Shown here: piece by piece, positions 5,188-31,490 of the stretch | Numbering within the stretch: position 1 is the stretch's first letter | Layout: each line of letters opens with the position of its first letter | NCBI GenBank assembly: GCA_027923505.1 | Contig: BROI01000002.1 | Location: 2,711,981-2,775,980 of the forward strand | Direction of reading: 5' to 3' | Source of the DNA: Mayamaea pseudoterrestris | Taxonomy: Eukaryota; Bacillariophyta; Bacillariophyceae; Sellaphorales; Sellaphoraceae | Length of the DNA: 64,000 nucleotides | Translations under genes and position numbers: made by a program | Notes under the pieces: generated by a model | Told to the model about the DNA's origin: nothing | Databases searched by the model: none | Seen by the model: only the letters and a program-made list of their open reading frames with translations

Positions 5188-6352
5188 ATGGTTGTTCCTT
5201 TCTGGGAGCTGCAGCAAGAGCACGAAGGAAAGGAGAAAGATGTTCAACTCAATAATGGATTTGCTCATCACGGAGAAGAGTTTGATGCTTTGAACCGCCA
5301 CCACAGTAGAACAGGCATGAAACAATTCACGGTACCCGTTGTTCAGAGACGAAACTTGACGTATATAAAGATGTCTGACAGGACAATGAAGAAAAATATT
5401 ATCAAATCTACCGGGTAAGCTTTCAAAATACCTACCATTCAAGACTAGACCATCCAATGTCTCTCACCCAACTCATTTCCATGTTACTCACAATTGGATC
5501 CATGATAGAATATATGCATTCCACCTGCTTAGCGAAAATCAACATTCAGTCGAAAGTGGTCTCATTCAGAATGATTTTGTTTGCCCTCTTTGTTCATTTG
5601 ACTCGCGAGCATTGCCTCATGTTTGGATCCACTTGAAAACATTTCACTCGGGAACGTTTTCCTTCCAGCACCGGACGACTCCCGACAATCAGCTACACAT
5701 TTTAGCCAAGCCGCTGAAACAGCACAAGCCAGAAGCAAGACCACCAAAAGGAACTTCAGAACTCATCTACTTTGAAACTCTGTGTCGTTACAAGGACTAC
5801 CACAATTTTCCAAATCAAGGAAGTGTCAAGCCACAAGACTTAATCACGCTACTACCTCCATATAGAGTCTCCTTTCCTGATCGACCATACTACCATCCAG
5901 AGACTGGCTGCGTACTTACACTTGGTCAATGGCTGCATGAAACAGAACATGTTAGTTTGAATCCCGAGTGGCAACGAAAGATGGAGAATGGCATGATTGA
6001 TGAGTTTTCTGATGTTTTGGCAACTGAAAAGGCATTTCTCAAGCTCTGGAATGGATACATGGCCAATGGCATTATGTTCTTTCCTGACTTGTTGCCACAA
6101 CTTGTTCATTTTGTGGAGAAATTTGCAAAGGCTATTTGTGAACAAGACTTGAACGGTGAGCTCCTTGCCCACCTGATGAATATGTGGGACCATGGCCACA
6201 TTAGTCGCCAAGCCATGCATTGGCTTTGTCGGCGCTACAGTGAATTGATTCATACTGACAAGTCTACTGTGAGAGCCACCAAGCCAGCTCAAACGCTAGT
6301 ATGTATGATGGCAAGGCCAATGGGCAAGCGAAAATTTGCAGAGTCATCATGA
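5188..6352 (+). CDS. Su(z)12/EMF2-like PRC2 subunit (VEFS box)
   Basis: Two exons: 5188-5414 and 5509-6352, joined by a 94-bp GT-AG intron that restores frame (phase 2), giving 356 aa from ATG 5188. An in-frame ATG at 5059 would add 43 residues of low-complexity lead. A C2H2 finger spans the exon-2 start (CPLCSFD, then HVWIHLKTFH, about residues 101-122), spaced as in Su(z)12. Residues about 220-320 form the VEFS box: NPEWQRKMENGMIDEFSD, KAFLKLWNGYM, LVHFVEKFAKAI and HLMNMWDHGHIS. Su(z)12 proteins are core subunits of Polycomb Repressive Complex 2, which methylates H3K27. The protein is much shorter than animal or plant homologs because the N-terminal C2 and NBE regions are largely missing. 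Confidence 0.82.
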
Positions 6353-6989: not shown

Positions 6990-8823
6990 ATACAATACCG
7001 ATTAATTGTGGTAGGATATATCTGGACATGCTTCACTGACATTAATGGGTGTAACTTGGTAAACATGCCGTACTTCTTGGTGTTTGTGTAGTCTACTCCA
7101 AATGGCCGGTGGTTCTGCAACATCTTCTACCCCAATCCAGTTGATTTGGCAATCTTTGTGCACGCGGAGCGCACAAAAGTTTGTTGCCAGGCATTGTAAA
7201 ACCATTGATCCTACCACTTTCCCCACCCTGCGAATGTGTTTTGAGCATGATATAAGCATGGGTAGAGTTCAACAACCGTTTGTCAAAATGGGATGGCAAG
7301 TCACTATTTACTGTTAATGCAAAGACTTTTTGCAAGCTTTGTTTATCTGCACTTACAGTGAAATTGACAAACGCTAGAAAAGCAGTCATCACTGACGTAC
7401 CAAATGCCCAATCAACAAGTGTGCATAGGCCCTCATTGTATTCCTCGGAAATATAAGAGCTGGTCATCGTGAGAACTACTCTGAAAGTGGTTTGCAGCAT
7501 CAAGAGAGCACTATCAGCCCTGCCATCCTGTGGGCAAATTGAGCATATGAGCAACATCAAAGACAAGAACAAAAAAGATGGCAAACTGAATACGTACATG
7601 CAAGGAGGAGACAAATTTCGGGAGAAGGCCCAAGATGCCCGCCGCAAAAAGTGTCGTCACAAATTTACTTGGGCGAGCTGCAACATGTTTTTCAAACAGT
7701 ATAGGCAATCATGTTGAGGGGTAATGCTTTCCTTTCATCAAAGCGTTGTCAACCAATGCAGCCTGGCTCGTTAGAAGTCCTATCAACCCGGGAATAAGTC
7801 TTTCACCATGTAGGGTGGCAAGATTCTCACTTGATCATATGTCTTGGTGGGTGAAATGTTGGGCAAACACTCTCAGCAGTGCTGCCAACCAAAAGCAAAA
7901 TATGGGGCTCACCTGGATGGTCAGAATGGGCCACTAGGAAAGCACCAACAAGGCCCCCAAGGCAGCCCAAATCAATAGATGGGTGATGCTCAAACAATTC
8001 CTGAAAAAGGCCTAACACCACAAGGCAGCTTGGAATTGTCAATCTCATCCAGACTATGATGTTAGGCTTGAAATGCCGTAGATGATTGAAGAGAGACATG
8101 GTTAGCAATGGAATAATAAACTTAGTCAAGAATTGACAAATGCAACTTACAAGATATTTGAGTATAATCCGCAGTGTACCAAAAGCAAAGGCTCCTGTCT
8201 GCAGAGACGAGTCATAATTTTGGCTGCAATTACTCTCACGTCGTTGTTCGCAGAGTCTGGCCCAAAGTGTAGGAGTGTTCGTGAAAGACATCTTACTGCG
8301 GTCACATTAATCACGGGCCACAAGCTTTGAACATGGTGAGCACCTCAACCAGTCCTGCCGCTGCACGGAAGATGTCAACCATTCTGGCATGGGCCCAAAA
8401 TGCGAATGCGAGTAGATGGGCAATATTCTCAAATGATGTTTGAGAACAATGCCAGTAGAGGTATTTATCCCCAGTATCTGCCGCAGTCGACGCTGCATAT
8501 GTACGTATGAATCCAAGGCAGTAGACCATATATGCGCTACACTCAGCAACCATTTCGTTCATGGCACATTGCCCCATGTAGTCATTGATAAAGGCAAATG
8601 CCTTTACCAGTTCCTGAACCACAGCTGGGTTGGCAAAACAACCTCTTCCATTTCAATTTACGCTGGCGAAAAGGTGTTGTGAACATGTTGGAGAAGAGCT
8701 GATATAGGCACGAATAAAGTGTGAGGTAGGAGCCTCATAATAAATGAACACTTGAGTACAAGTTTTGGAGCCGCTATTGACAGTTGAAGTTGCTGGTGCT
8801 CCTGCCTCTTCAGCTGTACTTAC
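6990..8823 (-). pseudogene. Decayed multi-exon membrane-protein gene remnants
   Basis: Several minus-strand frames carry protein-like, hydrophobic stretches without one intact frame. Between 8880 and 8311 an open frame interrupted by one TGA reads AFAFINDYMGQCAMNEM and FENIAHLLAFAFWAHARMVD. At about 8195-8150 a segment TGAFAFGTLRIILKYL is bounded by plausible cag/gta splice signals. At about 7270-7240 is LLNSTHAYIMLKTH. The second and third pieces weakly resemble the conserved C-terminal membrane segments of choline-transporter-like (CTL/SLC44) proteins, but this is only a pattern match by eye. The block ends exactly where the 3' LTR of the truncated copia element begins (8824), so the element sits inside or next to the dead gene. 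Confidence 0.35.
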
Positions 8824-9152
8824 TGACACGATAATATTAAACAAACCTTTATTCCAGCAACTACAATGGACTAGGAGCAATCAACCTCTTCATCCAGAGT
8901 AAAGCAAACAAACAAACTCAATTGCCAGAATAGTGTGTGTTACTTGCTACTCTACTCGTGCTCTTTGTCTCTGTTCTCACTGGGTTCATGGTCGAGGTTC
9001 ACGCCTCGACCCTCAGCGAATTCATACATGTATGTGAGGATTCGGTCACATGAGTGACTCAATCCAGCACAGGATTCAAATGTTTACAAACACAGGTAGC
9101 TAACCATCTTGTCATAAGACACAGGTCAACTCAACTCAATAATACTGTGTCA
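8824..9152 (-). repeat. LTR (3') of the truncated copia element
   Basis: 329 bp, starting TGACACGATAATAT and ending AATACTGTGTCA on the plus strand. It aligns along its whole length with 10265-10594, with scattered substitutions and small indels. The ends are a 6-bp inverted repeat. Confidence 0.88.
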
Positions 9153-9163
9153 TCCCCTTTAAT

Positions 9164-10264
9164 CTAGGCTTGTGACAATGATCGGTTTGCCGTGTCGCCC
9201 TTCCAGAAAAGAATCGGGACAATCAACGGGCGGAATGTGGCATGCAAGAACTTGGTAAGAACGTCGGCAACGTTCTGCTTGCCGAAGATGTGCTCAAAAT
9301 ACAGAACATTGCTTGCAATGGCCTCACGGACTTGATGGTAGGTGAGCGCATTGTGTCACTTAGAAAGTGTGGAGTGCGGGATCATTGACAACTTCTTGAT
9401 GCTTTCGTTGTCACTGAACATCCAGGCTGGTCCACTCAAAGGAACTCCTAACATGCATAGGGAGTATTGGAAATCCATAATCTGTTCTGTTGGGGTCTTG
9501 GCGACGACAAACTTGGATCCATACGTTGCAGTCTCAACAGTATTCTGATGCTTACAAAACCATTCAACGGGCGTCTGGTTCAGGAAATGTAGGACTCCCA
9601 TGGCGGAACGTCTGGTTGTGTAATCATGATACAGGTTCGCGCCCATAAAGGTAGATAGTTGCACAGGTTTGCCCTTTGGGACCAGCATATTCCACGAAAG
9701 CTCTTCGCTGGAGTCGCCGTAGACCAATTGCAACCAATTGTACTTGGTAAGTTCCCCGTGATCAACGATCTTTGTTTGGAAATGAATCGCCGCATCAGGG
9801 TACTCAGCTAGGTAACCGCAGACTCGCTTGGCTCGGTCCAGGTGTCGCGCCACGAAATTGGCCAAGTGTCATCAGGGCACAATGTATGTCAAATCAACAC
9901 AGTGTCACTGCCCACTGGAGGGCACCAATAAGAGACTGGTACTGTTGAATGCCACGGGCATTCAGCTCTTCGGTAAGGTCAAGTTTGGGGTGGTCCCCGT
10001 CGTCAAGCGGTGACTTGCACTTGCGTGGCTTTTCGCCAAACTATGGTTTCATAGTTCTTGAGCATGCGACCAATGTAAGTCTTTGCGCTCATGCAGAGGG
10101 TTCCATCAGGGTCACAATAGAAGTTGGCTCCAAGGTGATACTTGATATCGGTTAGGCTTGTGGATCTTCACACCGACGTACTTGTAGTGAGTGCCACAAT
10201 CTTTCATCCAAACGTCAGGGTCCACGTAACTTGGGTGAAATCCAATGTCGCAGAGTGTGTCAGC
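9164..10264 (-). pseudogene. Truncated copia pol: RT tail and RNase H
   Basis: The RNase H region reads from 9865 down: RAKRVCGYLAEYPDAAIHF, PVEWFCKHQNTVETATYGSK, PAWMFSDNESIKK. It continues in the same frame past one TGA (9353-9355, in place of the Arg codon of the usual KRHNAL motif) to TYHQVREAIASNVL and FGKQNVADVLTKF, and ends at TAG 9164-9166. Upstream, 9866-10264 holds frameshifted RT pieces (GFHPSYVDPDVWMKDCG, HLGANFYCDPDGTL). The start is lost at the LTR junction. The element cannot make a working polymerase. Confidence 0.82.
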
Positions 10265-10594
10265 TGACACGATAATATCAGACGAACCTTTATTCCAGCG
10301 ACTACAATGGACTCGGAGCGATCAACCTCTTCGTCCAGCGTAAAAGCAAACAAACAAACTCAATTGCTAGAATAGTGCATGTTACTCGCTACTCTACTCG
10401 TGCGCTTCTTTCTCGTTCTCACTGGGTTCACGGTCGAGGTTCACGCCTCGATCGTCAGCGATTTCACTCATGTATGTGAGGATTCGGTCACAAGTGTGAC
10501 TCAACCCTGCACAGGATTAAATGCATACAAAACACAGGTAGCTAACCGTCTTGTCATGAGACGCAGGTCAACTCAACTCAATAATATTGTGTCA
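10265..10594 (-). repeat. LTR (5') of the truncated copia element
   Basis: 330 bp, TGACACGATAATATC to AATATTGTGTCA. It is the partner of 8824-9152. Its inner edge forms the palindrome GTGTCAGCTGACAC (10257-10270) with the pol remnant, the likely deletion junction. Confidence 0.88.
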
Positions 10595-12035: not shown

Positions 12036-12422
12036 AACACCGTTGACGATTTCGCAGTCAACGTCTTACCTCCAAAAGCTTCGATACAGGGTCTTGGCCA
12101 CGGTCTGTACAGCTCTTGATGGAGATGGCTCGTCGAATAGTCTTGCGCCCGCCACTACACGAATCCGACTGCACTCTCGTCGCAAACTAGTAGTTCTATA
12201 TTGTGAGCTTATCGCTCCGCTACATCGACCATGGAAGATCATCCGATCAATCCGTTTCTTTCAATCACATTACATCAGTCGTAACTGGTCGTTCCATTCA
12301 TACAACGCATCCACACGTCGGTTGCGCACTTTCTTCATTCACATGTCACATACGACAGCTGCGGACTCGACACAAGCTAATTAGGGTTCGGGCTCTTGAC
12401 TTCGCCGCTCTGCGACTTGTCA
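12036..12422 (-). repeat. LTR A (3' LTR of copy 1)
   Basis: 387 bp, plus-strand ends AACACCGTTGACG and GCGACTTGTCA. It matches LTR C (18746-19132) except for G at 12233 versus C at 18943, and differs more from its own partner LTR B. Confidence 0.92.
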
Positions 12423-12430
12423 CTCCCCTC

Positions 12431-12797
12431 GGGTACGCTGCTCGTCGTAGCCGCATTCTTGTCCTTCACAATCGCATACGATGTATCGCCGCACCAAAAC
12501 AATACTGGCTTGAGCAATGGCATCGCATCACAGTACGGCAGGTACTTCGTCAGTATCGTCCGCAATGTTCTCCTTTCCGTCAATCTTCACAACTTGAGTA
12601 ATCCGCAGCAACTGCCCAACGAACACGATGGTAGGCCAACGCATTGTGTCGCTTGGACAATGTCCGAACTCAGGATTGTAGATTGTGTAATCACTGCTTG
12701 GTTGTCTCCGTACATCCAGGCAGACTTCTCCAATGGCGTACGCCCATAGCCATGAGCGATGCGCGTCGAGAAATGCTGATATCCGTTCCACTCTTTG
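12431..12797 (-). pseudogene. Frameshifted RNase H end of copia copy 1
   Basis: The main polyprotein stops at 12798 just after TVETAT. The expected RNase H continuation is present in other frames: PLEKSAWMYGDNQAVITQST after one shift, then VKIDGKENIAD and a tail containing TKYLPYCDAMPLLKPVLFW and GDTSYA after further shifts. The element has the sequence for a full RNase H but cannot translate it in one frame. The same lesions occur in copy 2 at +6,710. Confidence 0.75.
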
Positions 12798-15700
12798 CTA
12801 CCGCCGACTTCCGATCCGGGTCGCAGTCTCGACTGTGGCCTGGAGTTTGCAATGCCAGTCGATTGGCGTTCTGGTTGACAAATGACAAAAAACTCCTTCC
12901 AATGACTTGCCTGTCACCATGCAATCCATGAGCACGCATCCTCGAAAGTTGATGTTCGTACAGTCACACCCTTTGGCGGTGGGTGCAGACGTCCAACATC
13001 TCATCAACTCCGTCCTTCCCGTGAACGCTGCGCTCCAATCTTGTTCCTCCATGGTGCCGAAGTGCTCCTCGTTGGCTCCGTTCGTACGGAAACGGATTGC
13101 TGCGTCCGGTAACTCTCGCAAATATCCACAGACTCGCTTCACCCGCTGCAGGTGTCCCTTGCGCGGCTCCACACGGAATCGCGACAGACTCACAACTGCT
13201 ACGGCAATGTCAAATCGTCCCAAAGTAATCGCCCACTGAAGTGCTCCGACTAGAGACTGGTAAATCTTCTTCTCTTGGTCGTTCAGTAGCTCGCTTTGGT
13301 CAAGTTCGGGATGATCGTCTTTGTCGATTGGTGATGAATACTTCTTCGGAGGACCTTCAAACAACCGCTCGTACTGCGCCAAGAGTTTCGCAACGTAGGT
13401 CTTGGCCGACCAGTAAAGAGTTCCATCAGGGTCTCGTCCAAAGTCACCGCCGAGATGATACTCGGGATGTCCAACACCTTTGAGCTTAAACTTGTACTTC
13501 TCCTCTAGCATCTTGAAGAACGCTGCTGGATCGTCTGAAATATTCAACAGATCGTCGACCCATACACAGAGGTAGTCGTAGCTGTCGCCGGCGTCCTTGA
13601 TCCACAGATCGGAATCGCAATAGGACGGCTTCCACCCTTCCGCAAGTAGGGCGTCGGCTAAGCGTTCGTGAAATCGTGCTCCGCTCGTTCGCAATCCGTA
13701 CAAAGCCTTGACGATGACCAGGATGTGTCCTTCGCGCTCCCCGAACTCGGGGCCTCCAACGAAGTATACCTTCTCCTTGGTGAACGCTTCGAGATAAGCA
13801 TTCCCAATGTCACCGACCATGCACTTCTTGCCGTTCGCTTCTCCAATGACGAGAGCTAGACGCATTGCCTTCAATGAGATAACACTGGAGTAGGCATCGT
13901 CGTTGTCTTTCGTCATGTGGCCGCCTGCAACGAGACGTGCCTTGTATCGCAAATCGTGCTTGACATCGTACACAAAATGGACTCGGATCTTCTGGTAACC
14001 AGTTGGTGGTGTTGTGGTGGAACTCGGACCGAGATCTTGAAACGTCTCGTACTCGTCCAGGTTCGCAAGCTCCACGCCTTCTGCATCCGTCCACTTCGTG
14101 TGTCCTGCAGCTTCTTGTAGACGTCGCGCTTCCTTCCAATCTCGGGGTACTTGGACTCCAAACTTGTAGCGCGGTCCGTTCTTCTGCTGCTCCATTCGGG
14201 CGATCGCCACCTTGCGCGCAACCTTCTTGGCGTTCCGGGCCCATCGATTCAACGATGTCCATCCGTCCTTGTCGAGAAGATTATGCTTTTGCGCGTAGGC
14301 TGCCACTGATACTTTGTCGCTTTCGATCATCGCGTTGAGAGGCTCCCAAGTCTTGGATCCATCGTCCCATTGTACAAGGACGTTCCACTTGGAGTGCTTC
14401 CAGTTCTTCGACTTGCTCGTCAGCGGACCCTGATGGTCTAGAATCTCCTTGAAGAACCATTTACGCTCAGGATTCGCCATGTCTTGGTTCACTTCGGCCT
14501 CGTAGAGATCGGAAACCTCGACATACGACATGATTTCGTCCGCTTCGCCGTTGCCAAGCTTCAGCATCATTTTAATGTTCTGATGGTTCTGGGCGTCGCG
14601 GTTGTTCAGCTTGCTCATGACGGTCGCTCGAACTTCTTGCCCGTCGTCCGTCTTCATGAGAAACGACTTGCCGATAAGTTCATCGGGTGCATACTTCGGG
14701 AGTTTGCGCCACGGATTGATGTTCTTCTTCTTCGGCTTGTCGTCGTCGTCATCGTCATCGGCAGGATTCGGATCTAGCTCCCCGTCGGTCATATCGTCGT
14801 CTTCCGGGTATTCCACCGTCTCGACCAAAGGGGTATCGTCTTCGTCAGGAATGAAAGAATCATCGTCTCTGCTGTCGGCGTCGGTAATCTTCTTGATCAT
14901 TTCCGGCATAAGGATCTCGCCACCTAGACCAGGTACGGTATAGAGACGCGGCTCCCCTTCTTTCATGACTGGGGAAGCAGGTGCCGGTACGCGAAGGTTC
15001 AAAAATTTTGGGTCATTTCGGGGTAAGCAAACCGATCGCGTCATGATCTCGTGGGTCTCGCAATCACAGATGAAGTACGTCAGGTCGTCTCCGCACGTCG
15101 TGTTGGGACCAAGCCAGTACGCCGCGCGCTGGCGGGTACCCGGGGCCTCGACATCCTTGACAAAGTAGTTGACAATTTCAAACCAACGAAAATGCAAATA
15201 CTTCGACACGTCGGGGACTTGCCCAGTGATAAACTCGATGGGAGACTTGCCGTCCAAGGCAGGATGCGACAAATGACGGTACATCTCGGTCTGAAAGAGT
15301 AAAGCGCGTAGCCAGAAGCATGCCGGAGTGCCTGTTCGGTCCATAAGTCGTTCATGACTTTCCTTGACGTGTCCGATGATGCGCTCGGCTGGATTTTGAT
15401 TCTGGTAGTACGGCTCCGATGTATGACGACGGCGAATCATGAACTCGCGCATTACTTCGTCAAACTCGGCACTCATCGCTTCTTTCGCATTATCCGAGAA
15501 GACTTCCAACGGAGCTCCAAACTCGCGGATGAAATCACGGAATCGTTTCGGTACGTCACCTTTCGTCCGCATGGGATACACGACAATGATCTGACTGCGA
15601 CAGCCATAGAATAGCTGCACGCATGTGCACCCTGCATGTCCGTCGATATGATCATCCATGGCTGGTTCGTCGAAGAACATGGTGTCATGGGCCACTCGAT

Positions 15701-18248
15701 CATCTAGACGGTAGACGTTCAGGAATCGGCTCTTTCGATGCATTCGTGGGGGGTATCGGCGCTCGTGCATGTTGAACTGCGTGCTGTGGCGCAAAGTATC
15801 CTTGATCGTCTGCGCCGGGTACCATGCAAAGTTCGGCAGCAATGCGTCGATATCAGGTTTCTTTGGCAGGATAGACTTGTAGGGCTGATAGACGAGATCC
15901 GCATTGTACTTCTGTACGACGGCACAAACATTCAGCTCCTTCTCGGTGTAAACAGGTTGATTGTCGTGTCCGAGATTCGTATACGTCACGTTGCTTTGAC
16001 GATGGGTGCGATTCCGCGTACGCGAACGTGTCACGCGCGTGAAGCCCTCTTCGTCGTCACTGTCTTCGTCGTCTTCGTCGCGCGACAACAAGTCCGGTAC
16101 GTCGTCCTCGTCGTCATCGTCATCCGAAGAGTCATAGTCGTCGTCCTCGGTCGGCTCGACGTCAAACTCATTCGGATCCCAAGGTCCATCGAAGGTCATC
16201 ATGACCCGAGGTAAGGTGTGAAGCTCATGCGCCGACACTGGAAACATTGGCAAGGTCGCCATGCCACTTTCCATCCCGAGCATAAACTTGTATCCATCTG
16301 GCGTTTCGATTCGTAACTTGCCACCAAAGTTGTAATGCTTGTCGTTGACATGAAGTCCGAAGGCTTCCATCTGCATACTCGAATGAATCGTCTTGCCGGT
16401 TCCAGAATATGCGTAATTATGGAACTCGCCGACGACCCAACCCTTGGTGCTCTTAAGCTTGGCGACTGCTGTGACGGTAGACAGGTCCGGAAGTTTGAGA
16501 CCACCGACTCCAGTGACTTCAATCTTGTGGAACTTGTCCTCGGTAAGGATGCGGCCGTCCGCTCCCCATACTCCGCCACTCGCGCCGCGATCGACAGTCG
16601 ACGCTGAATGCTTATCCAAGTCAATGCTCGCGACTTTGTACTTGCGACTCTGAGCGATATTCGCTCCCCGAGTCGTAGTCGTGGGCTGGTCTGGACCTAA
16701 GAAACTTCGCATCGCTGAGCCACGGCTGGTGTTGTTCACACGCTCAGTCGCTGCACTCGCCGTCGTTGCCGCTGATGAAGTGGCTGCGACGTTTGCGTTG
16801 CGTGTTGTACTCGTCGTCTGCGTGGTGCCTGCCTGTGTTGCTGATGTCGAACCACCTGCAGCACTGGCCGCTCGACTCGTACCACGGCGTTCAAACACTT
16901 CATGTTGCTGATCGCGGGTAAGGAGTCGCCACGTGTTTGGTGGAATCGTCGCATTCACGTCGCTGGGGATTTCGATCGTCTTCGTGTCGGCATAGCTGCG
17001 AACATACGTACGAGTATCTCCCCGACCGCGGCCGCTGCCGCCGCCTCGTCCTGTGCTCAAGTCGCCGCGACCACCGCCCCCCTGACTGGATTGCTGATTG
17101 TTGCTGCTACTTGGCGTAGACTGGGAATTGTTCGCGCTTGCCTTCTTCGTCTTCTCCTTCTCTTTCTTGGTCTGCTCAGATTGGTTCGCCTGACGCTTCT
17201 CGGTCTCCTTGATGCCACGACGATTGTCAGATTGACGTGCGACGTCGTTCAGGAGGTTCCAAAACTGGGTGTACGCCATCGGGTTGCCGGTCTTGGACTC
17301 TTCGATCAGCGCCATGTTCACCGCCGCTGCCATATCCGCATGGCGGAAAACCGCGCGTTCCAAAATCTGACGCTTCGTGCTTGCTGTAAGTAGCTCGGTT
17401 TCCTCGGCGTAGTCATTGTAGTTCTCTTCCTTGCTGGACCACTGGATAAGCCAATTGACGAGAGACTTGGCGTAACCCGCGTCGAGGGTGAAGTTGCGCC
17501 ATTCGTCTTCGGCCGAACGTAGATCCAACTTGCGCGCCATCCCGTCGAGGAATGTCGCCTCCAACTCTGCAATGCACGCTGAGGCATTCGCGCTGTCGAT
17601 GTGCTTGCGGACAATGAGCTTGCTCTGCGGAGTCTTGCAGGTATACTCGAGCGCCGCTAAAAGCTTCGAACACTGATACTGATACTCGGCGAATTCGGGC
17701 TCGAGTGCAGCTGGTGCCTTGAACTCGTCGTCCCAAAAGTAGCCAAGTCGCTCGCTTCGCATGCGGTTATTGAAGGCCCGCCAGTAGGAGCAGAACTTGC
17801 GATCGTTCTTAAGCTCCAGCATGGTCTTCAGATCCAGCTTGATGTCATGTCGCTTCGTCGTGTTGTCGTTGCCTCCGATAACGCTGAAGTCTCCGAAACT
17901 GCGGTTGCCTGCGGTCGGTGACCCCGGTGCTACTGGGAGGTCTCGGCTCGTAATCTGGTCTTTCTCCAAGTCTTGCCATTGCGCAGTCGTCCGACGTTGC
18001 TCGTGAATCCAACTCATGAGCTTGCGCAATCGGCTTGTTCGTATCGTCGACCACTGGTACTGGTTCTTAATGTTCGTCACGTCTTGTTCCGACAACTCGG
18101 CCATCGCCTCCGCAGTCGTGAGTTCCTCGGATTCGAAGCATACTGCGGTAGGGTCGTTTGGGTCCCAAGCTGCGGACGCTGCGAGCCACGGAATATCGAA
18201 GACTTTACCGACGGCACGCTTGTAGGTCGTTACATCAATCGTCGTCAT
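12798..18248 (-). CDS. Copia gag-pol polyprotein, copy 1
   Basis: 1,816 aa in a single frame from ATG 18248. Gag-like helical region (about 1-350), then Gln/Ser-rich and RGG-like tracts (about 370-430) with no CCHC knuckle. Protease-like segment with active-site motif DRGA near 553. Integrase with catalytic Asp near 867 (IDGHAG), Asp near 917 (FSDN) and Glu 36 residues on (NQNPAERI), a DD35E spacing. Acidic spacer with runs of Asp. Chromodomain-like module about 1260-1325 (EILDHQGP, WNVLVQWDDGSKTWEPLNAM). RT about 1400-1640 with VWVDDLL near 1562. It ends prematurely in RNase H (TVETATRIGSRR). Gag and Pol in one frame, without a frameshift site, is normal for Ty1/copia. Confidence 0.92.
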   Translation of the reverse strand: MTTIDVTTYKRAVGKVFDIPWLAASAAWDPNDPTAVCFESEELTTAEAMAELSEQDVTNIKNQYQWSTIRTSRLRKLMSWIHEQRRTTAQWQDLEKDQITSRDLPVAPGSPTAGNRSFGDFSVIGGNDNTTKRHDIKLDLKTMLELKNDRKFCSYWRAFNNRMRSERLGYFWDDEFKAPAALEPEFAEYQYQCSKLLAALEYTCKTPQSKLIVRKHIDSANASACIAELEATFLDGMARKLDLRSAEDEWRNFTLDAGYAKSLVNWLIQWSSKEENYNDYAEETELLTASTKRQILERAVFRHADMAAAVNMALIEESKTGNPMAYTQFWNLLNDVARQSDNRRGIKETEKRQANQSEQTKKEKEKTKKASANNSQSTPSSSNNQQSSQGGGGRGDLSTGRGGGSGRGRGDTRTYVRSYADTKTIEIPSDVNATIPPNTWRLLTRDQQHEVFERRGTSRAASAAGGSTSATQAGTTQTTSTTRNANVAATSSAATTASAATERVNNTSRGSAMRSFLGPDQPTTTTRGANIAQSRKYKVASIDLDKHSASTVDRGASGGVWGADGRILTEDKFHKIEVTGVGGLKLPDLSTVTAVAKLKSTKGWVVGEFHNYAYSGTGKTIHSSMQMEAFGLHVNDKHYNFGGKLRIETPDGYKFMLGMESGMATLPMFPVSAHELHTLPRVMMTFDGPWDPNEFDVEPTEDDDYDSSDDDDDEDDVPDLLSRDEDDEDSDDEEGFTRVTRSRTRNRTHRQSNVTYTNLGHDNQPVYTEKELNVCAVVQKYNADLVYQPYKSILPKKPDIDALLPNFAWYPAQTIKDTLRHSTQFNMHERRYPPRMHRKSRFLNVYRLDDRVAHDTMFFDEPAMDDHIDGHAGCTCVQLFYGCRSQIIVVYPMRTKGDVPKRFRDFIREFGAPLEVFSDNAKEAMSAEFDEVMREFMIRRRHTSEPYYQNQNPAERIIGHVKESHERLMDRTGTPACFWLRALLFQTEMYRHLSHPALDGKSPIEFITGQVPDVSKYLHFRWFEIVNYFVKDVEAPGTRQRAAYWLGPNTTCGDDLTYFICDCETHEIMTRSVCLPRNDPKFLNLRVPAPASPVMKEGEPRLYTVPGLGGEILMPEMIKKITDADSRDDDSFIPDEDDTPLVETVEYPEDDDMTDGELDPNPADDDDDDDKPKKKNINPWRKLPKYAPDELIGKSFLMKTDDGQEVRATVMSKLNNRDAQNHQNIKMMLKLGNGEADEIMSYVEVSDLYEAEVNQDMANPERKWFFKEILDHQGPLTSKSKNWKHSKWNVLVQWDDGSKTWEPLNAMIESDKVSVAAYAQKHNLLDKDGWTSLNRWARNAKKVARKVAIARMEQQKNGPRYKFGVQVPRDWKEARRLQEAAGHTKWTDAEGVELANLDEYETFQDLGPSSTTTPPTGYQKIRVHFVYDVKHDLRYKARLVAGGHMTKDNDDAYSSVISLKAMRLALVIGEANGKKCMVGDIGNAYLEAFTKEKVYFVGGPEFGEREGHILVIVKALYGLRTSGARFHERLADALLAEGWKPSYCDSDLWIKDAGDSYDYLCVWVDDLLNISDDPAAFFKMLEEKYKFKLKGVGHPEYHLGGDFGRDPDGTLYWSAKTYVAKLLAQYERLFEGPPKKYSSPIDKDDHPELDQSELLNDQEKKIYQSLVGALQWAITLGRFDIAVAVVSLSRFRVEPRKGHLQRVKRVCGYLRELPDAAIRFRTNGANEEHFGTMEEQDWSAAFTGRTELMRCWTSAPTAKGCDCTNINFRGCVLMDCMVTGKSLEGVFCHLSTRTPIDWHCKLQATVETATRIGSRR

Positions 18249-18346
18249 GGTGGAGGTTGATCAGAGGAATCGGACTCGCTGCAGACGAATGTGTCACAAT
18301 AGCTCCCTCGCTCGTTCTCGCTCTCAAAGCACTGAAATGTTAATCT

Positions 18347-18740
18347 AACACCGTTGACGATTTCGCAGTCAACGTCTTACCTCCAAAAAGCTCCGATACA
18401 GGGTCCTTGGCCACGGTCTGTACAGCTCTTGATGGAGATGGCTCGTCGAATAGTCTTGCGCTCGCCACTACACGAATACGACTGCACTCTCGTCGCAAAC
18501 TAGTAGTTCTATATTGTGAGCTTATCGCTACATCGCTACATCGACCACTCGGAAGATCATCCGATCAATCCGTTTCTTTCAATCACATTACATCAGTCGT
18601 AACTGGTCGTTCCATTCATACAACGCATCCACACGACGGTTGCGCACTTTCTTCATTCACATGTCACATACGACAGCTGCGGACTCGACACAAGCTAATT
18701 AGGGTTCGGGCTCTTGACTTCGCCGCTCTGCGACTTGTCA
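18347..18740 (-). repeat. LTR B (5' LTR of copy 1)
   Basis: 394 bp. Same ends as LTR A, but with the substitutions and indels it shares with LTR D (25057-25450), for example ATCGCTACATCGCTACATCG instead of ATCGCTCCGCTACATCG. I found no typical tRNA-complementary primer site directly inside it; the leader begins AGATTAACATTTC on the element strand. Confidence 0.92.
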
Positions 18741-18745
18741 ATATG
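18741..18745. repeat. ATATG junction between the two copia copies
   Basis: Five bases separate LTR B from LTR C. The same ATATG follows LTR D at 25451-25455, so copy 2 is flanked by a perfect 5-bp direct repeat, the usual copia target-site duplication length. Confidence 0.85.
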
Positions 18746-19132
18746 AACACCGTTGACGATTTCGCAGTCAACGTCTTACCTCCAAAAGCTTCGATACAGG
18801 GTCTTGGCCACGGTCTGTACAGCTCTTGATGGAGATGGCTCGTCGAATAGTCTTGCGCCCGCCACTACACGAATCCGACTGCACTCTCGTCGCAAACTAG
18901 TAGTTCTATATTGTGAGCTTATCGCTCCGCTACATCGACCATCGAAGATCATCCGATCAATCCGTTTCTTTCAATCACATTACATCAGTCGTAACTGGTC
19001 GTTCCATTCATACAACGCATCCACACGTCGGTTGCGCACTTTCTTCATTCACATGTCACATACGACAGCTGCGGACTCGACACAAGCTAATTAGGGTTCG
19101 GGCTCTTGACTTCGCCGCTCTGCGACTTGTCA
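18746..19132 (-). repeat. LTR C (3' LTR of copy 2)
   Basis: 387 bp, identical to LTR A by eye except at 18943. Its 5' neighbour within the element is the GAGGGGAG purine tract (19133-19140 on the plus strand). Confidence 0.92.
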
Positions 19133-19140
19133 CTCCCCTC

Positions 19141-19507
19141 GGGTACGCTGCTCGTCGTAGCCGCATTCTTGTCCTTCACAATCGCATACGATGTATCGCC
19201 GCACCAAAACAATACTGGCTTGAGCAATGGCATCGCATCACAGTACGGCAGGTACTTCGTCAGTATCGTCCGCAATGTTCTCCTTTCCGTCAATCTTCAC
19301 AACTTGAGTAATCCGCAGCAACTGCCCAACGAACACGATGGTAGGCCAACGCATTGTGTCGCTTGGACAATGTCCGAACTCAGGATTGTAGATTGTGTAA
19401 TCACTGCTTGGTTGTCTCCGTACATCCAGGCAGACTTCTCCAATGGCGTACGCCCATAGCCATGAGCGATGCGCGTCGAGAAATGCTGATATCCGTTCCA
19501 CTCTTTG
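19141..19507 (-). pseudogene. Frameshifted RNase H end of copia copy 2
   Basis: Same sequence and same frame breaks as 12431-12797. The lesions therefore predate the duplication of the element. Confidence 0.75.
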
Positions 19508-22500
19508 CTACCGCCGACTTCCGATCCGGGTCGCAGTCTCGACTGTGGCCTGGAGTTTGCAATGCCAGTCGATTGGCGTTCTGGTTGACAAATGACAAAA
19601 AACTCCTTCCAATGACTTGCCTGTCACCATGCAATCCATGAGCACGCATCCTCGAAAGTTGATGTTCGTACAGTCACACCCTTTGGCGGTGGGTGCAGAC
19701 GTCCAACATCTCATCAACTCCGTCCTTCCCGTGAACGCTGCGCTCCAATCTTGTTCCTCCATGGTGCCGAAGTGCTCCTCGTTGGCTCCGTTCGTACGGA
19801 AACGGATTGCTGCGTCCGGTAACTCTCGCAAATATCCACAGACTCGCTTCACCCGCTGCAGGTGTCCCTTGCGCGGCTCCACACGGAATCGCGACAGACT
19901 CACAACTGCTACGGCAATGTCAAATCGTCCCAAAGTAATCGCCCACTGAAGTGCTCCGACTAGAGACTGGTAAATCTTCTTCTCTTGGTCGTTCAGTAGC
20001 TCGCTTTGGTCAAGTTCGGGATGATCGTCTTTGTCGATTGGTGATGAATACTTCTTCGGAGGACCTTCAAACAACCGCTCGTACTGCGCCAAGAGTTTCG
20101 CAACGTAGGTCTTGGCCGACCAGTAAAGAGTTCCATCAGGGTCTCGTCCAAAGTCACCGCCGAGATGATACTCGGGATGTCCAACACCTTTGAGCTTAAA
20201 CTTGTACTTCTCCTCTAGCATCTTGAAGAACGCTGCTGGATCGTCTGAAATATTCAACAGATCGTCGACCCATACACAGAGGTAGTCGTAGCTGTCGCCG
20301 GCGTCCTTGATCCACAGATCGGAATCGCAATAGGACGGCTTCCACCCTTCCGCAAGTAGGGCGTCGGCTAAGCGTTCGTGAAATCGTGCTCCGCTCGTTC
20401 GCAATCCGTACAAAGCCTTGACGATGACCAGGATGTGTCCTTCGCGCTCCCCGAACTCGGGGCCTCCAACGAAGTATACCTTCTCCTTGGTGAACGCTTC
20501 GAGATAAGCATTCCCAATGTCACCGACCATGCACTTCTTGCCGTTCGCTTCTCCAATGACGAGAGCTAGACGCATTGCCTTCAATGAGATAACACTGGAG
20601 TAGGCATCGTCGTTGTCTTTCGTCATGTGGCCGCCTGCAACGAGACGTGCCTTGTATCGCAAATCGTGCTTGACATCGTACACAAAATGGACTCGGATCT
20701 TCTGGTAACCAGTTGGTGGTGTTGTGGTGGAACTCGGACCGAGATCTTGAAACGTCTCGTACTCGTCCAGGTTCGCAAGCTCCACGCCTTCTGCATCCGT
20801 CCACTTCGTGTGTCCTGCAGCTTCTTGTAGACGTCGCGCTTCCTTCCAATCTCGGGGTACTTGGACTCCAAACTTGTAGCGCGGTCCGTTCTTCTGCTGC
20901 TCCATTCGGGCGATCGCCACCTTGCGCGCAACCTTCTTGGCGTTCCGGGCCCATCGATTCAACGATGTCCATCCGTCCTTGTCGAGAAGATTATGCTTTT
21001 GCGCGTAGGCTGCCACTGATACTTTGTCGCTTTCGATCATCGCGTTGAGAGGCTCCCAAGTCTTGGATCCATCGTCCCATTGTACAAGGACGTTCCACTT
21101 GGAGTGCTTCCAGTTCTTCGACTTGCTCGTCAGCGGACCCTGATGGTCTAGAATCTCCTTGAAGAACCATTTACGCTCAGGATTCGCCATGTCTTGGTTC
21201 ACTTCGGCCTCGTAGAGATCGGAAACCTCGACATACGACATGATTTCGTCCGCTTCGCCGTTGCCAAGCTTCAGCATCATTTTAATGTTCTGATGGTTCT
21301 GGGCGTCGCGGTTGTTCAGCTTGCTCATGACGGTCGCTCGAACTTCTTGCCCGTCGTCCGTCTTCATGAGAAACGACTTGCCGATAAGTTCATCGGGTGC
21401 ATACTTCGGGAGTTTGCGCCACGGATTGATGTTCTTCTTCTTCGGCTTGTCGTCGTCGTCATCGTCATCGGCAGGATTCGGATCTAGCTCCCCGTCGGTC
21501 ATATCGTCGTCTTCCGGGTATTCCACCGTCTCGACCAAAGGGGTATCGTCTTCGTCAGGAATGAAAGAATCATCGTCTCTGCTGTCGGCGTCGGTAATCT
21601 TCTTGATCATTTCCGGCATAAGGATCTCGCCACCTAGACCAGGTACGGTATAGAGACGCGGCTCCCCTTCTTTCATGACTGGGGAAGCAGGTGCCGGTAC
21701 GCGAAGGTTCAAAAATTTTGGGTCATTTCGGGGTAAGCAAACCGATCGCGTCATGATCTCGTGGGTCTCGCAATCACAGATGAAGTACGTCAGGTCGTCT
21801 CCGCACGTCGTGTTGGGACCAAGCCAGTACGCCGCGCGCTGGCGGGTACCCGGGGCCTCGACATCCTTGACAAAGTAGTTGACAATTTCAAACCAACGAA
21901 AATGCAAATACTTCGACACGTCGGGGACTTGCCCAGTGATAAACTCGATGGGAGACTTGCCGTCCAAGGCAGGATGCGACAAATGACGGTACATCTCGGT
22001 CTGAAAGAGTAAAGCGCGTAGCCAGAAGCATGCCGGAGTGCCTGTTCGGTCCATAAGTCGTTCATGACTTTCCTTGACGTGTCCGATGATGCGCTCGGCT
22101 GGATTTTGATTCTGGTAGTACGGCTCCGATGTATGACGACGGCGAATCATGAACTCGCGCATTACTTCGTCAAACTCGGCACTCATCGCTTCTTTCGCAT
22201 TATCCGAGAAGACTTCCAACGGAGCTCCAAACTCGCGGATGAAATCACGGAATCGTTTCGGTACGTCACCTTTCGTCCGCATGGGATACACGACAATGAT
22301 CTGACTGCGACAGCCATAGAATAGCTGCACGCATGTGCACCCTGCATGTCCGTCGATATGATCATCCATGGCTGGTTCGTCGAAGAACATGGTGTCATGG
22401 GCCACTCGATCATCTAGACGGTAGACGTTCAGGAATCGGCTCTTTCGATGCATTCGTGGGGGGTATCGGCGCTCGTGCATGTTGAACTGCGTGCTGTGGC

Positions 22501-24958
22501 GCAAAGTATCCTTGATCGTCTGCGCCGGGTACCATGCAAAGTTCGGCAGCAATGCGTCGATATCAGGTTTCTTTGGCAGGATAGACTTGTAGGGCTGATA
22601 GACGAGATCCGCATTGTACTTCTGTACGACGGCACAAACATTCAGCTCCTTCTCGGTGTAAACAGGTTGATTGTCGTGTCCGAGATTCGTATACGTCACG
22701 TTGCTTTGACGATGGGTGCGATTCCGCGTACGCGAACGTGTCACGCGCGTGAAGCCCTCTTCGTCGTCACTGTCTTCGTCGTCTTCGTCGCGCGACAACA
22801 AGTCCGGTACGTCGTCCTCGTCGTCATCGTCATCCGAAGAGTCATAGTCGTCGTCCTCGGTCGGCTCGACGTCAAACTCATTCGGATCCCAAGGTCCATC
22901 GAAGGTCATCATGACCCGAGGTAAGGTGTGAAGCTCATGCGCCGACACTGGAAACATTGGCAAGGTCGCCATGCCACTTTCCATCCCGAGCATAAACTTG
23001 TATCCATCTGGCGTTTCGATTCGTAACTTGCCACCAAAGTTGTAATGCTTGTCGTTGACATGAAGTCCGAAGGCTTCCATCTGCATACTCGAATGAATCG
23101 TCTTGCCGGTTCCAGAATATGCGTAATTATGGAACTCGCCGACGACCCAACCCTTGGTGCTCTTAAGCTTGGCGACTGCTGTGACGGTAGACAGGTCCGG
23201 AAGTTTGAGACCACCGACTCCAGTGACTTCAATCTTGTGGAACTTGTCCTCGGTAAGGATGCGGCCGTCCGCTCCCCATACTCCGCCACTCGCGCCGCGA
23301 TCGACAGTCGACGCTGAATGCTTATCCAAGTCAATGCTCGCGACTTTGTACTTGCGACTCTGAGCGATATTCGCTCCCCGAGTCGTAGTCGTGGGCTGGT
23401 CTGGACCTAAGAAACTTCGCATCGCTGAGCCACGGCTGGTGTTGTTCACACGCTCAGTCGCTGCACTCGCCGTCGTTGCCGCTGATGAAGTGGCTGCGAC
23501 GTTTGCGTTGCGTGTTGTACTCGTCGTCTGCGTGGTGCCTGCCTGTGTTGCTGATGTCGAACCACCTGCAGCACTGGCCGCTCGACTCGTACCACGGCGT
23601 TCAAACACTTCATGTTGCTGATCGCGGGTAAGGAGTCGCCACGTGTTTGGTGGAATCGTCGCATTCACGTCGCTGGGGATTTCGATCGTCTTCGTGTCGG
23701 CATAGCTGCGAACATACGTACGAGTATCTCCCCGACCGCGGCCGCTGCCGCCGCCTCGTCCTGTGCTCAAGTCGCCGCGACCACCGCCCCCCTGACTGGA
23801 TTGCTGATTGTTGCTGCTACTTGGCGTAGACTGGGAATTGTTCGCGCTTGCCTTCTTCGTCTTCTCCTTCTCTTTCTTGGTCTGCTCAGATTGGTTCGCC
23901 TGACGCTTCTCGGTCTCCTTGATGCCACGACGATTGTCAGATTGACGTGCGACGTCGTTCAGGAGGTTCCAAAACTGGGTGTACGCCATCGGGTTGCCGG
24001 TCTTGGACTCTTCGATCAGCGCCATGTTCACCGCCGCTGCCATATCCGCATGGCGGAAAACCGCGCGTTCCAAAATCTGACGCTTCGTGCTTGCTGTAAG
24101 TAGCTCGGTTTCCTCGGCGTAGTCATTGTAGTTCTCTTCCTTGCTGGACCACTGGATAAGCCAATTGACGAGAGACTTGGCGTAACCCGCGTCGAGGGTG
24201 AAGTTGCGCCATTCGTCTTCGGCCGAACGTAGATCCAACTTGCGCGCCATCCCGTCGAGGAATGTCGCCTCCAACTCTGCAATGCACGCTGAGGCATTCG
24301 CGCTGTCGATGTGCTTGCGGACAATGAGCTTGCTCTGCGGAGTCTTGCAGGTATACTCGAGCGCCGCTAAAAGCTTCGAACACTGATACTGATACTCGGC
24401 GAATTCGGGCTCGAGTGCAGCTGGTGCCTTGAACTCGTCGTCCCAAAAGTAGCCAAGTCGCTCGCTTCGCATGCGGTTATTGAAGGCCCGCCAGTAGGAG
24501 CAGAACTTGCGATCGTTCTTAAGCTCCAGCATGGTCTTCAGATCCAGCTTGATGTCATGTCGCTTCGTCGTGTTGTCGTTGCCTCCGATAACGCTGAAGT
24601 CTCCGAAACTGCGGTTGCCTGCGGTTGGTGACCCCGGTGCTACTGGGAGGTCTCGGCTCGTAATCTGGTCTTTCTCCAAGTCTTGCCATTGCGCAGTCGT
24701 CCGACGTTGCTCGTGAATCCAACTCATGAGCTTGCGCAATCGGCTTGTTCGTATCGTCGACCACTGGTACTGGTTCTTAATGTTCGTCACGTCTTGTTCC
24801 GACAACTCGGCCATCGCCTCCGCAGTCGTGAGTTCCTCGGATTCGAAGCATACTGCGGTAGGGTCGTTTGGGTCCCAAGCTGCGGACGCTGCGAGCCACG
24901 GAATATCGAAGACTTTACCGACGGCACGCTTGTAGGTCGTTACATCAATCGTCGTCAT
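19508..24958 (-). CDS. Copia gag-pol polyprotein, copy 2
   Basis: 1,816 aa with the same amino-acid sequence as copy 1. The only coding difference I found is silent (a Pro codon; T at 24626 versus C at 17916 on the plus strand). Protease-like DRGA, DD35E integrase, chromodomain-like module and VWVDD reverse transcriptase lie at the same residue positions. It stops early in RNase H like copy 1, so it is probably not fully autonomous. Confidence 0.92.
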   Translation of the reverse strand: MTTIDVTTYKRAVGKVFDIPWLAASAAWDPNDPTAVCFESEELTTAEAMAELSEQDVTNIKNQYQWSTIRTSRLRKLMSWIHEQRRTTAQWQDLEKDQITSRDLPVAPGSPTAGNRSFGDFSVIGGNDNTTKRHDIKLDLKTMLELKNDRKFCSYWRAFNNRMRSERLGYFWDDEFKAPAALEPEFAEYQYQCSKLLAALEYTCKTPQSKLIVRKHIDSANASACIAELEATFLDGMARKLDLRSAEDEWRNFTLDAGYAKSLVNWLIQWSSKEENYNDYAEETELLTASTKRQILERAVFRHADMAAAVNMALIEESKTGNPMAYTQFWNLLNDVARQSDNRRGIKETEKRQANQSEQTKKEKEKTKKASANNSQSTPSSSNNQQSSQGGGGRGDLSTGRGGGSGRGRGDTRTYVRSYADTKTIEIPSDVNATIPPNTWRLLTRDQQHEVFERRGTSRAASAAGGSTSATQAGTTQTTSTTRNANVAATSSAATTASAATERVNNTSRGSAMRSFLGPDQPTTTTRGANIAQSRKYKVASIDLDKHSASTVDRGASGGVWGADGRILTEDKFHKIEVTGVGGLKLPDLSTVTAVAKLKSTKGWVVGEFHNYAYSGTGKTIHSSMQMEAFGLHVNDKHYNFGGKLRIETPDGYKFMLGMESGMATLPMFPVSAHELHTLPRVMMTFDGPWDPNEFDVEPTEDDDYDSSDDDDDEDDVPDLLSRDEDDEDSDDEEGFTRVTRSRTRNRTHRQSNVTYTNLGHDNQPVYTEKELNVCAVVQKYNADLVYQPYKSILPKKPDIDALLPNFAWYPAQTIKDTLRHSTQFNMHERRYPPRMHRKSRFLNVYRLDDRVAHDTMFFDEPAMDDHIDGHAGCTCVQLFYGCRSQIIVVYPMRTKGDVPKRFRDFIREFGAPLEVFSDNAKEAMSAEFDEVMREFMIRRRHTSEPYYQNQNPAERIIGHVKESHERLMDRTGTPACFWLRALLFQTEMYRHLSHPALDGKSPIEFITGQVPDVSKYLHFRWFEIVNYFVKDVEAPGTRQRAAYWLGPNTTCGDDLTYFICDCETHEIMTRSVCLPRNDPKFLNLRVPAPASPVMKEGEPRLYTVPGLGGEILMPEMIKKITDADSRDDDSFIPDEDDTPLVETVEYPEDDDMTDGELDPNPADDDDDDDKPKKKNINPWRKLPKYAPDELIGKSFLMKTDDGQEVRATVMSKLNNRDAQNHQNIKMMLKLGNGEADEIMSYVEVSDLYEAEVNQDMANPERKWFFKEILDHQGPLTSKSKNWKHSKWNVLVQWDDGSKTWEPLNAMIESDKVSVAAYAQKHNLLDKDGWTSLNRWARNAKKVARKVAIARMEQQKNGPRYKFGVQVPRDWKEARRLQEAAGHTKWTDAEGVELANLDEYETFQDLGPSSTTTPPTGYQKIRVHFVYDVKHDLRYKARLVAGGHMTKDNDDAYSSVISLKAMRLALVIGEANGKKCMVGDIGNAYLEAFTKEKVYFVGGPEFGEREGHILVIVKALYGLRTSGARFHERLADALLAEGWKPSYCDSDLWIKDAGDSYDYLCVWVDDLLNISDDPAAFFKMLEEKYKFKLKGVGHPEYHLGGDFGRDPDGTLYWSAKTYVAKLLAQYERLFEGPPKKYSSPIDKDDHPELDQSELLNDQEKKIYQSLVGALQWAITLGRFDIAVAVVSLSRFRVEPRKGHLQRVKRVCGYLRELPDAAIRFRTNGANEEHFGTMEEQDWSAAFTGRTELMRCWTSAPTAKGCDCTNINFRGCVLMDCMVTGKSLEGVFCHLSTRTPIDWHCKLQATVETATRIGSRR

Positions 24959-25056
24959 GGTGGAGGTTGATCAGAGGAATCGGACTCGCTGCAGACGAAT
25001 GTGTCACAATAGCTCCCTCGCTCGTTCTCGCTCTCAAAGCACTGAAATGTTAATCT

Positions 25057-25450
25057 AACACCGTTGACGATTTCGCAGTCAACGTCTTACCTCCAAAAAG
25101 CTCCGATACAGGGTCCTTGGCCACGGTCTGTACAGCTCTTGATGGAGATGGCTCGTCGAATAGTCTTGCGCTCGCCACTACACGAATACGACTGCACTCT
25201 CGTCGCAAACTAGTAGTTCTATATTGTGAGCTTATCGCTACATCGCTACATCGACCACTCGGAAGATCATCCGATCAATCCGTTTCTTTCAATCACATTA
25301 CATCAGTCGTAACTGGTCGTTCCATTCATACAACGCATCCACACGACGGTTGCGCACTTTCTTCATTCACATGTCACATACGACAGCTGCGGACTCGACA
25401 CAAGCTAATTAGGGTTCGGGCTCTTGACTTCGCCGCTCTGCGACTTGTCA
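25057..25450 (-). repeat. LTR D (5' LTR of copy 2)
   Basis: 394 bp, matching LTR B and differing from LTR C by the same set of changes that separate LTR A and B. Confidence 0.92.
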
Positions 25451-26310
25451 ATATGACTTAAAAGTAGATGGACCTCACTCATTTAGCGGAACACATTGGA
25501 CTTGATAGGTGGATGGACCTCGCTCATTGAGCGGGAACACATTGGACCTGAAATTGGATGGAACTCACTTATCTAGCAGTAGTGCATTGGACTTGAAAGT
25601 GGATGGGCCTCACTCATGTAGTGGACTTGATAGGTGGATGGACCTCACTCAATTAGCGGGTACACCTTCAACTTGATAGGTGGATGGACCTCACTCATTT
25701 AGCGGGAACACATTAAACTTGAAAGTGGGATGGACCAAACTTATTTTGCGGGACGCATTGGACTTGAAAGTGGATGGACCTCACTCATTTAGTGGGAACA
25801 CATATGACTTAAAAGTAGATGGACCTCACTCATTTAGCGGAACACATTGGACTTGATAGGTGGATGGACCTCGCTCATTGAGCGGGAACACATTGGACCT
25901 GAAATTGGATGGAACTCACTTATCTAGCAGTAGTGCATTGGACTTGAAAGTGGATGGGCCTCACTCATGTAGTGGACTTGATAGGTGGATGGACCTAACT
26001 CAATTAGCGGGTACACCTTGGACTTGATAGGTGGATGGACCTCACTCATTTAGCGGGAACACATTGGACTTGAAAGTGGATGGAACTCACTTATTTAGCG
26101 GTAGTGCATTGGACTTGAAAGTAGATGGGCCTCACTCATGTAGTGGACTTGATAGGTGGATAGACCTCACTCAACTAACGGGAACACCTTGGACTTGATA
26201 GGTGGATGGACCTCACTCATTTAGCGGGAACACATTAAACTTGATAGTGGATGGACCTTACTCATTTAGCTAGATACATTGGACTTGAAAGTGGATGGAC
26301 CTCACTTATA
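25451..26310. repeat. Satellite of about 46-bp units with 351-bp higher-order period
   Basis: Imperfect tandem units built on ACTTGATAGGTGGATGGACC, TCACTCATTTAGCGGGAACA and CATTGG, about 46 bp each, with some shortened units. A block beginning ATATGACTTAAAAGTAGATGG at 25451 recurs at 25802 with the same unit variants in the same order, giving a 351-bp higher-order repeat. No open frame runs through it. It ends near 26310. Confidence 0.9.
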
Positions 26311-30809: not shown

Positions 30810-31490
30810 TTACTTTTGCAAGTGCTTATCAACCGTCTCGCGTAGTGTATTAATCACGCCTTGTCGGTCGTCCGAGCCAAAGATTGCACTGGCTGCGACC
30901 ACCACATTGGCGCCGCTGGATGCAGCCTCTTCAATCGTCGATGGACTTAATCCACCATCCACTTGAATGTTTAAAGAAGGATACTTTTCTCTCAAAGTCT
31001 TTACCTTTGGCATCATTTCCGGCATGAACTTTTGCCCACTAAAGCCCGGCTCGACCGTCATAATGAGAACCATGTCCAGCTTGTCAACATAGGGAAACAA
31101 CGTTTCGACCGGCGTGCCGGGCTTGATCACCATACCAACATGCATGCCAGCGTCGCGGATCATGCGAATCATGGCATTCGGGTCGTTCTCAGGCAGTTCG
31201 CTTTCCAAGTGAAACGTCAAGCAGCTTGCACCTGCTTCCTTGAGCGGCTGGACCCACTTGTATGGCTCCGAAACCATCAAGTGACAGTCTAAATACGCTT
31301 CAGGACAAGCCTTGTGTAGACTCGCAATCACTGGTGGTCCAAACGACAAGTTTGGGACAAAGTGGCCATCCATTAAATCCATGTGAAGGTAGTCGGCGCC
31401 CATGCGAAGCATTTCCTTGGCATCGTCCGCCAGTCGAGCAAGATCACACGATAAGAGTGAAGGGCAGATGATTGATTTAACGTTTGACAT
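30810..31490 (-). CDS. RPE: Ribulose-phosphate 3-epimerase
   Basis: 226 aa from ATG 31490 (MSNVKSIICPSLLSCD). Full TIM-barrel epimerase: SLLSCDLARLADDAK, HMDLMDGHFVPNLSFGPPV, DCHLMVSEPYKW, TVEPGFSGQKFM, QVDGGLSPSTIEEAA and GANVVVAASAIFG. The metal-binding His and Asp (HMDLMDGHF, CHLM, VDGGL) are all present. It interconverts ribulose-5-P and xylulose-5-P in the pentose phosphate pathway. The frame is open upstream to an ATG at 31637, which would add 49 Ser/Thr/Arg-containing residues resembling a mitochondrial leader. A TATA-like TATATAG lies between the two ATGs, which favours the shorter, cytosolic form. Confidence 0.92.
   Translation of the reverse strand: MSNVKSIICPSLLSCDLARLADDAKEMLRMGADYLHMDLMDGHFVPNLSFGPPVIASLHKACPEAYLDCHLMVSEPYKWVQPLKEAGASCLTFHLESELPENDPNAMIRMIRDAGMHVGMVIKPGTPVETLFPYVDKLDMVLIMTVEPGFSGQKFMPEMMPKVKTLREKYPSLNIQVDGGLSPSTIEEAASSGANVVVAASAIFGSDDRQGVINTLRETVDKHLQK

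Follow-up and report, generated by a model that had tools for sequence, protein, structure and literature searches.

The question raised by the locus described here is whether two adjacent copies of a Copia-type retrotransposon were placed side by side in the cell or in the assembly. The window, that is, the whole stretch of DNA analysed, is the last 64 kb of contig C2 in the Mayamaea pseudoterrestris assembly, which was searched as 30.6 Mb in 41 contigs. It holds a unit of 6,710 bases, composed of a Copia-type element on the minus strand and then the pentamer ATATG, which is present twice head to tail. In a self-BLAST of the window, 12036-18746 aligns with 18746-25456 at 99.97% identity with two mismatches and no gaps, and a shift of the window by 6,710 places mismatches inside the unit solely at 12233/18943 and 17916/24626. 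An earlier interpretation made from the letters of this DNA, referred to below as the sequence-only reading, had given the same period, coordinates and counts, and these are confirmed. It had offered as origin either a recent DNA-level duplication or an assembly duplication, and its title preferred the former, with an unequal pair of long terminal repeats (LTRs) inherited by both copies. The second alternative fits best. We propose, with a probability of about 0.8 and on the basis of sequence comparison, that the tandem pair is a false duplication made in assembly. The inherited unequal pair is left unsupported by an indel-rich block in the units, by sister cases on other contigs and by a flank found on contig C34. 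The features of the pair are as follows.

12036..18745, minus strand: unit copy 1, a Copia-type element (LTR A, internal region, LTR B) plus ATATG; matches 18746-25455 except at 12233 and 17916
18746..25455, minus strand: unit copy 2, a Copia-type element (LTR C, internal region, LTR D) plus ATATG, with ATATG on either side
12036..12422, minus strand: LTR A (3' LTR by strand), lacking the T with which family LTRs mostly begin; relative to LTR B, 6 substitutions and 4 deletions
18346..18740, minus strand: LTR B (5' LTR by strand), same sequence as many family LTRs
18741..18745, no strand: ATATG, unit junction between LTR B and LTR C
18746..19132, minus strand: LTR C (3' LTR by strand), one base apart from LTR A
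25056..25450, minus strand: LTR D (5' LTR by strand), identical to LTR B
25451..25455, no strand: ATATG, right target-site repeat; the same pentamer closes the left flank of the copy at C34:138953
12036..13080, no strand: indel-rich block; 18 indels and 20 substitutions relative to the C41 copy, with the indels spanning 12078 to 13078
18746..19790, no strand: indel-rich block of copy 2, which follows the clean LTR B and the ATATG

LTRs B and D are identical, and LTR A departs from LTR B by 6 substitutions and 4 indels, as had been stated. The equation of LTR A with LTR C holds except for one base, the mismatch at 12233/18943, and LTR C differs from LTR B by 5 substitutions and 5 indels. From the strand of the element, A and C would be the 3' LTRs and B and D the 5' LTRs. 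When the unit is compared with the copy on contig C41, 18 indels and 20 substitutions are found in 12036-13080, versus 2 and 76, respectively, in the remaining 5.7 kb (Fisher p 7e-9, with block limits picked after the data were seen and a comparison that begins at 12054, the C41 LTR being truncated). The block is located at the start of each unit, with its first indel 43 bases in (12078) and a missing T at the very edge; LTR A and LTR C both begin AACACC, without the leading T of the family's TAACACC. Both the LTR inequality and the frameshifts close to the 3' end of the element's open reading frame (ORF; indels 12556 to 13078) fall within this block, and the argument from unequal LTRs to an inherited pair therefore loses its force. 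The frameshifts are common to both copies, as the sequence-only reading had noted, but their assignment to RNase H is a label given by that reading, and in Pfam the 1,816-amino-acid ORF had no match to an RNase H model.

Indel-rich blocks of this kind are best read as poorly polished consensus and not as age. The element at C10:190474-195978 has matching target repeats (TGGTT) and one LTR that is 100% intact, yet 40 indels lie within ~1.2 kb inside it; because the perfect LTR and the matching repeats belong to the same element, these indels do not reflect age. Among 33 rows from the LTR A side compared with a C7 copy (matches of <500 bases had been removed before counting, as had second hits lying within 50 bases of a place already taken, and some rows cover just part of the 1.9 kb), 18 are without an indel over the aligned part, a number that counts the yardstick itself and one C41 place twice. 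Nine rows carry 8-43 indels, mostly bunched in blocks, and two of these nine are the window copies; the other 6 carry 1-5. Ageing is an unlikely source of the divergence of LTR A, since in several diverged LTRs transitions are present but indels are few or absent: the LTR at C39:3104 has 9 transitions and nothing else, and those at C10:411167 and C12:661572 have 6 transitions and 1 transversion each. All 58 LTR rows, noisy ones included, contain 147 transitions, 78 transversions, 80 deletions and 17 insertions. The mismatch at 12233/18943 is CCATGGAAG versus CCATCGAAG, where LTR B reads CCACTCGGAAG. It can be read as one shared lost base plus one differing lost base, as from two noisy consensus calls of one sequence. 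The missing T of LTRs A and C may be part of the same noise. We infer both that the indels are sequencing noise and that the assembly step proposed below took place.

Exact head-to-tail repeats of the family also occur on contigs C41, C3 and C15; they were noticed among the fetched family copies and not through a genome-wide search made for them. At C41:55660-69027, two units of 6,684 bases stand with 0 mismatches and with LTR abutting LTR, and the same 19 bases are lost at the outer edge and at the junction. On C3, 2,954 bases are repeated without a difference; the repeat begins two bases ahead of TAACACC and breaks off within the element. Beyond the identical part, the second C3 copy has 10 indels in a 100-base bin whose start is 4 bases further on, and 127 in the remainder of the element; the end of the copy coincides with a seam between clean and noisy sequence. 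On C15, an LTR plus CT is repeated with a period of 397. In three of the four cases, those of the window, C3 and C15, the U5 edge is where copy 2 begins anew; at C41 it does so 19 bases further inside the element, and the unit ends differ. This pattern would result if a piece starting at a repeat edge were placed after another piece in which the repeat is already present; LTR-LTR crossing-over and insertion of complementary DNA (cDNA) would not readily produce it.

A nested insertion on C3 was considered and ruled out, as the outer element's remainder is absent from the 3.3 kb behind (up to 1053500), where only one weak reverse match, 74%, was found. Two other candidates were set aside. The two parts of C7:323046-331569 differ (99% and 96% to the window), and this place was not counted as a further duplication; C34:142711-143440, a 0.36-kb repeat at a join with 98% identity between copies, was excluded from the exact cases.

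The flanks of the pair were compared with each other and with the rest of the assembly. The left flank of LTR A reads GTCTC, which leaves a matching 5-bp repeat on both sides for the second element only. The outer flanks of the whole pair are unmatched, with GTCTC on the left and ATATG on the right, and no single target repeat surrounds the array. The left flank (536 bases, ending in GTCTC) has one match in the genome, itself. Its partner was not found in a search for the family LTR end plus GTCTC; the one match, on C5, was rejected because no LTR is there. The right flank is a minisatellite.

25455..26306, no strand: 45/46-bp minisatellite of the right flank; its matching half-array on contig C34 runs up to a family copy

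A search with this minisatellite, which skips very common words so that further arrays are possible, gave 14 matches. Matches of >450 bases are at C2, C34:137676-138931 and C4:838229-839446; the other 9 are short and to sequence beyond the array. The C34 array stops at ...GGGAACACATATG, then comes the family LTR; across this edge it reads ...ACACATATG followed by TAACACC. When the C34 left flank and the window right flank are joined over their common ATATG, Tandem Repeats Finder reports one array, 216-2350, across the join at 1499. The alignment score of the true join is 66, with 6 of 45 shifted joins scoring higher (67 to 73), all near one full period, and with the window's own left flank scoring 35. 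This score is weak when taken alone, and the argument therefore depends on the two array halves being complementary and having ATATG in common. The native left side of the second element is probably the one on C34, and the insertion into the minisatellite is probably real. The C2 left flank would have been joined to the second element through misassembly or real exchange.

We propose that one Copia-type element was present in two sequence pieces. The first piece would comprise the left flank, the element and a little sequence past its end, and the second would extend from the element edge into the minisatellite flank. The two pieces would have been set end to end, with the shared 6.7 kb left unmerged. 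Directly seen are the near-identical units, the indel-rich block at the unit starts, the sister cases and the better left-flank partner on C34. It should be mentioned that several observations weigh against a false duplication. There is no N gap at the junction and no N anywhere in the window. The start of the noise can be placed only to within 43 bases, and since the left flank is single-copy, noise before 12036 is not traceable. The C41 pair is without a noisy block. A real tandem collapsed to one consensus and then placed twice would share its noise too; the junction ATATG is exactly the right target repeat, which is also expected if the element and its target repeat were duplicated precisely in tandem; and mismatched target repeats are also explicable by ectopic recombination between elements. 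Finally, the element bodies of the C34 copy and the window differ at 7 positions in 13081-13500. Given these differences, the two pieces could not both represent a single element accurately: either one or both of them are mosaics, or each derives from an insertion of its own.

Several of these points bear on the alternative that survives best, a real DNA-level tandem duplication of the element plus its target repeat, with a rearrangement replacing the original left flank. The near-perfect identity of the units and the ATATG at both right edges agree with it, a recent event would look alike, and a collapsed consensus placed twice would account for the shared indels. We nevertheless consider it unlikely, as the breaks would have to fall at the element edge and at the target-repeat end, with ~1 base of homology at the unit junction, and similar edge-tied events would be required at C41, C3 and C15. 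The end of the C3 copy on the clean/noisy seam and the unmatched left flank also argue against it. Were the repeats in the window and at C41, C3 and C15 all real, a cellular process would have duplicated DNA backwards from the retrotransposon U5 edge, leaving LTR-LTR joints, and this we regard as highly improbable. Even less credence is given to retrotransposition, in which a head-to-tail cDNA or a two-LTR circle would be inserted, or recombined into an existing copy, as is reported of yeast elements. The few additional bases where LTRs abut (ATATG in the window, CT at C15) do resemble end-joined cDNA, and the family looks recently active, with many LTRs identical to LTR B. However, a single insertion is expected to have one target repeat outside both ends, where GTCTC and ATATG are found; divergent LTRs A and C beside pristine B and D are unexpected from reverse transcription; and the C3 case stops inside the element. 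Least credible of all are two separate insertion events, in which the second would have hit the 5 bases next to the first and gene conversion would later have homogenised the two: the family has an insertion hot spot and the second element is flanked by ATATG, but conversion would have to copy 6.7 kb with every indel yet halt at both edges, and the first element would still be without its own target repeat. The sequence-only reading was right to reject both independent insertions and LTR-LTR unequal crossing-over; LTR B and LTR C are distinct and stand 5 bases apart, with no shared internal LTR.

If the pair is indeed an assembly artefact, the tandem copies, unequal LTRs and missing target repeats of this Copia family in the assembly are not readable as biology, and LTR-divergence dating here would take consensus noise for age. 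A check from sequence is offered by the indel-to-substitution ratio along each copy, together with unit edges that fall on seams between clean and noisy sequence.

The family was found in at least 43 LTR matches in the genome (40 of 98 candidates scored) and at least 27 matches to the internal part (23 of 152 scored), both counts being lower bounds. On the plus strand, the LTR edges are TAACACC...TGTCA in most copies seen. The 5-bp target-site repeats of Copia elements are present: they match exactly in 5 of 11 two-ended single elements and mismatch in 6. The 11 include neither the C41 pair nor the window pair, nor any copy whose ends are truncated, noisy or N-masked. Among the six are C1:13223, C7:621530 and C41:27971, in which both LTRs are identical to LTR B.

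Insertions at C2:1717524, C7:628232, C23:510205 and C39:3104, and in reverse orientation at C41:34686, C29:124114 and C33:26659, are into nearly one stretch of another repeat, with flank ...GACAACTTGTCACCAGTCTCAGC, which is an apparent insertion hot spot of the family. ATCTG is common to the right flank of C41:34686 and the left flank of C29:124114, and the joined flanks match other copies of the target repeat. This hints at halves of one insertion on different contigs; two hot-spot insertions would look alike, the target being repeated. At C10:463190, one LTR has internal sequence on either side, a shared-LTR junction with both sides indel-rich. From C1:2692500 onward, an N run starts within a family LTR; it may be an assembly gap, but is ambiguous and was not used as evidence.

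The coding content of the two copies is as follows.

12798..18248, minus strand: gag-pol ORF of copy 1, 1,816 amino acids, with RVT_2; 3' end inside the indel-rich block
19508..24958, minus strand: gag-pol ORF of copy 2, 1,816 amino acids

In Pfam, residues 1415-1626 of this ORF match RVT_2, the Copia-type reverse transcriptase (PF07727, 8.5e-21), and no integrase domain was found in it at E 0.001. RVT_2 within a gag-pol ORF between LTRs places the element in the Copia (Ty1-type) class. By eye, a purine-rich stretch on the coding strand adjoins LTR A/C. We regard the element as an ordinary Copia-type retrotransposon that was active recently. Elsewhere in the window, gene content supports a eukaryotic source, with ordinary eukaryotic genes. 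Window ORFs with Pfam matches are at 189-2672 (NCA2), 5612-6352 (VEFS-box, polycomb) and 30810-31637 (ribulose-phosphate 3-epimerase). A direct repeat of ~330 bases with 89% identity is located at 8823-9152 and 10264-10594.

We have compared the pair with tandem elements and with duplications described elsewhere. In yeast, Ty5 is said to form tandem elements by cDNA recombination, sometimes with LTR-LTR joints. Unlike Ty5 tandems, the window shows no unprocessed cDNA joint, and its copies have an indel-rich block and a divergent LTR in common. Two rice tandem LTR-retrotransposon loci have one internal LTR shared and one target repeat around the array, and one of the two was checked by 4 spanning long reads (PMC11899658). 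As in the window, two elements of a single LTR family follow each other head to tail at these loci, in the same orientation; unlike them, the window has two LTRs plus ATATG between the elements and unmatched outer flanks.

The pattern of the pair resembles false homotype duplication, a term of the Vertebrate Genomes Project for overlapping sequence at contig boundaries that is kept twice (PMC8081667, PMC9516828). Such duplications, described there for vertebrate assemblies and often found at contig boundaries, are linked to read errors and were recognised by read coverage, k-mers and curation (PMC8081667, PMC9516828). A gap between the copies is described there as a common sign (PMC9516828); the window copies stand without one. 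Unlike the cases described there, the overlap in the window would be one whole repeat element, read from sequence alone. As in those cases, one locus would have been written twice, and the window holds near-identical adjacent copies of one locus, with 2 mismatches in 6,710 bases.

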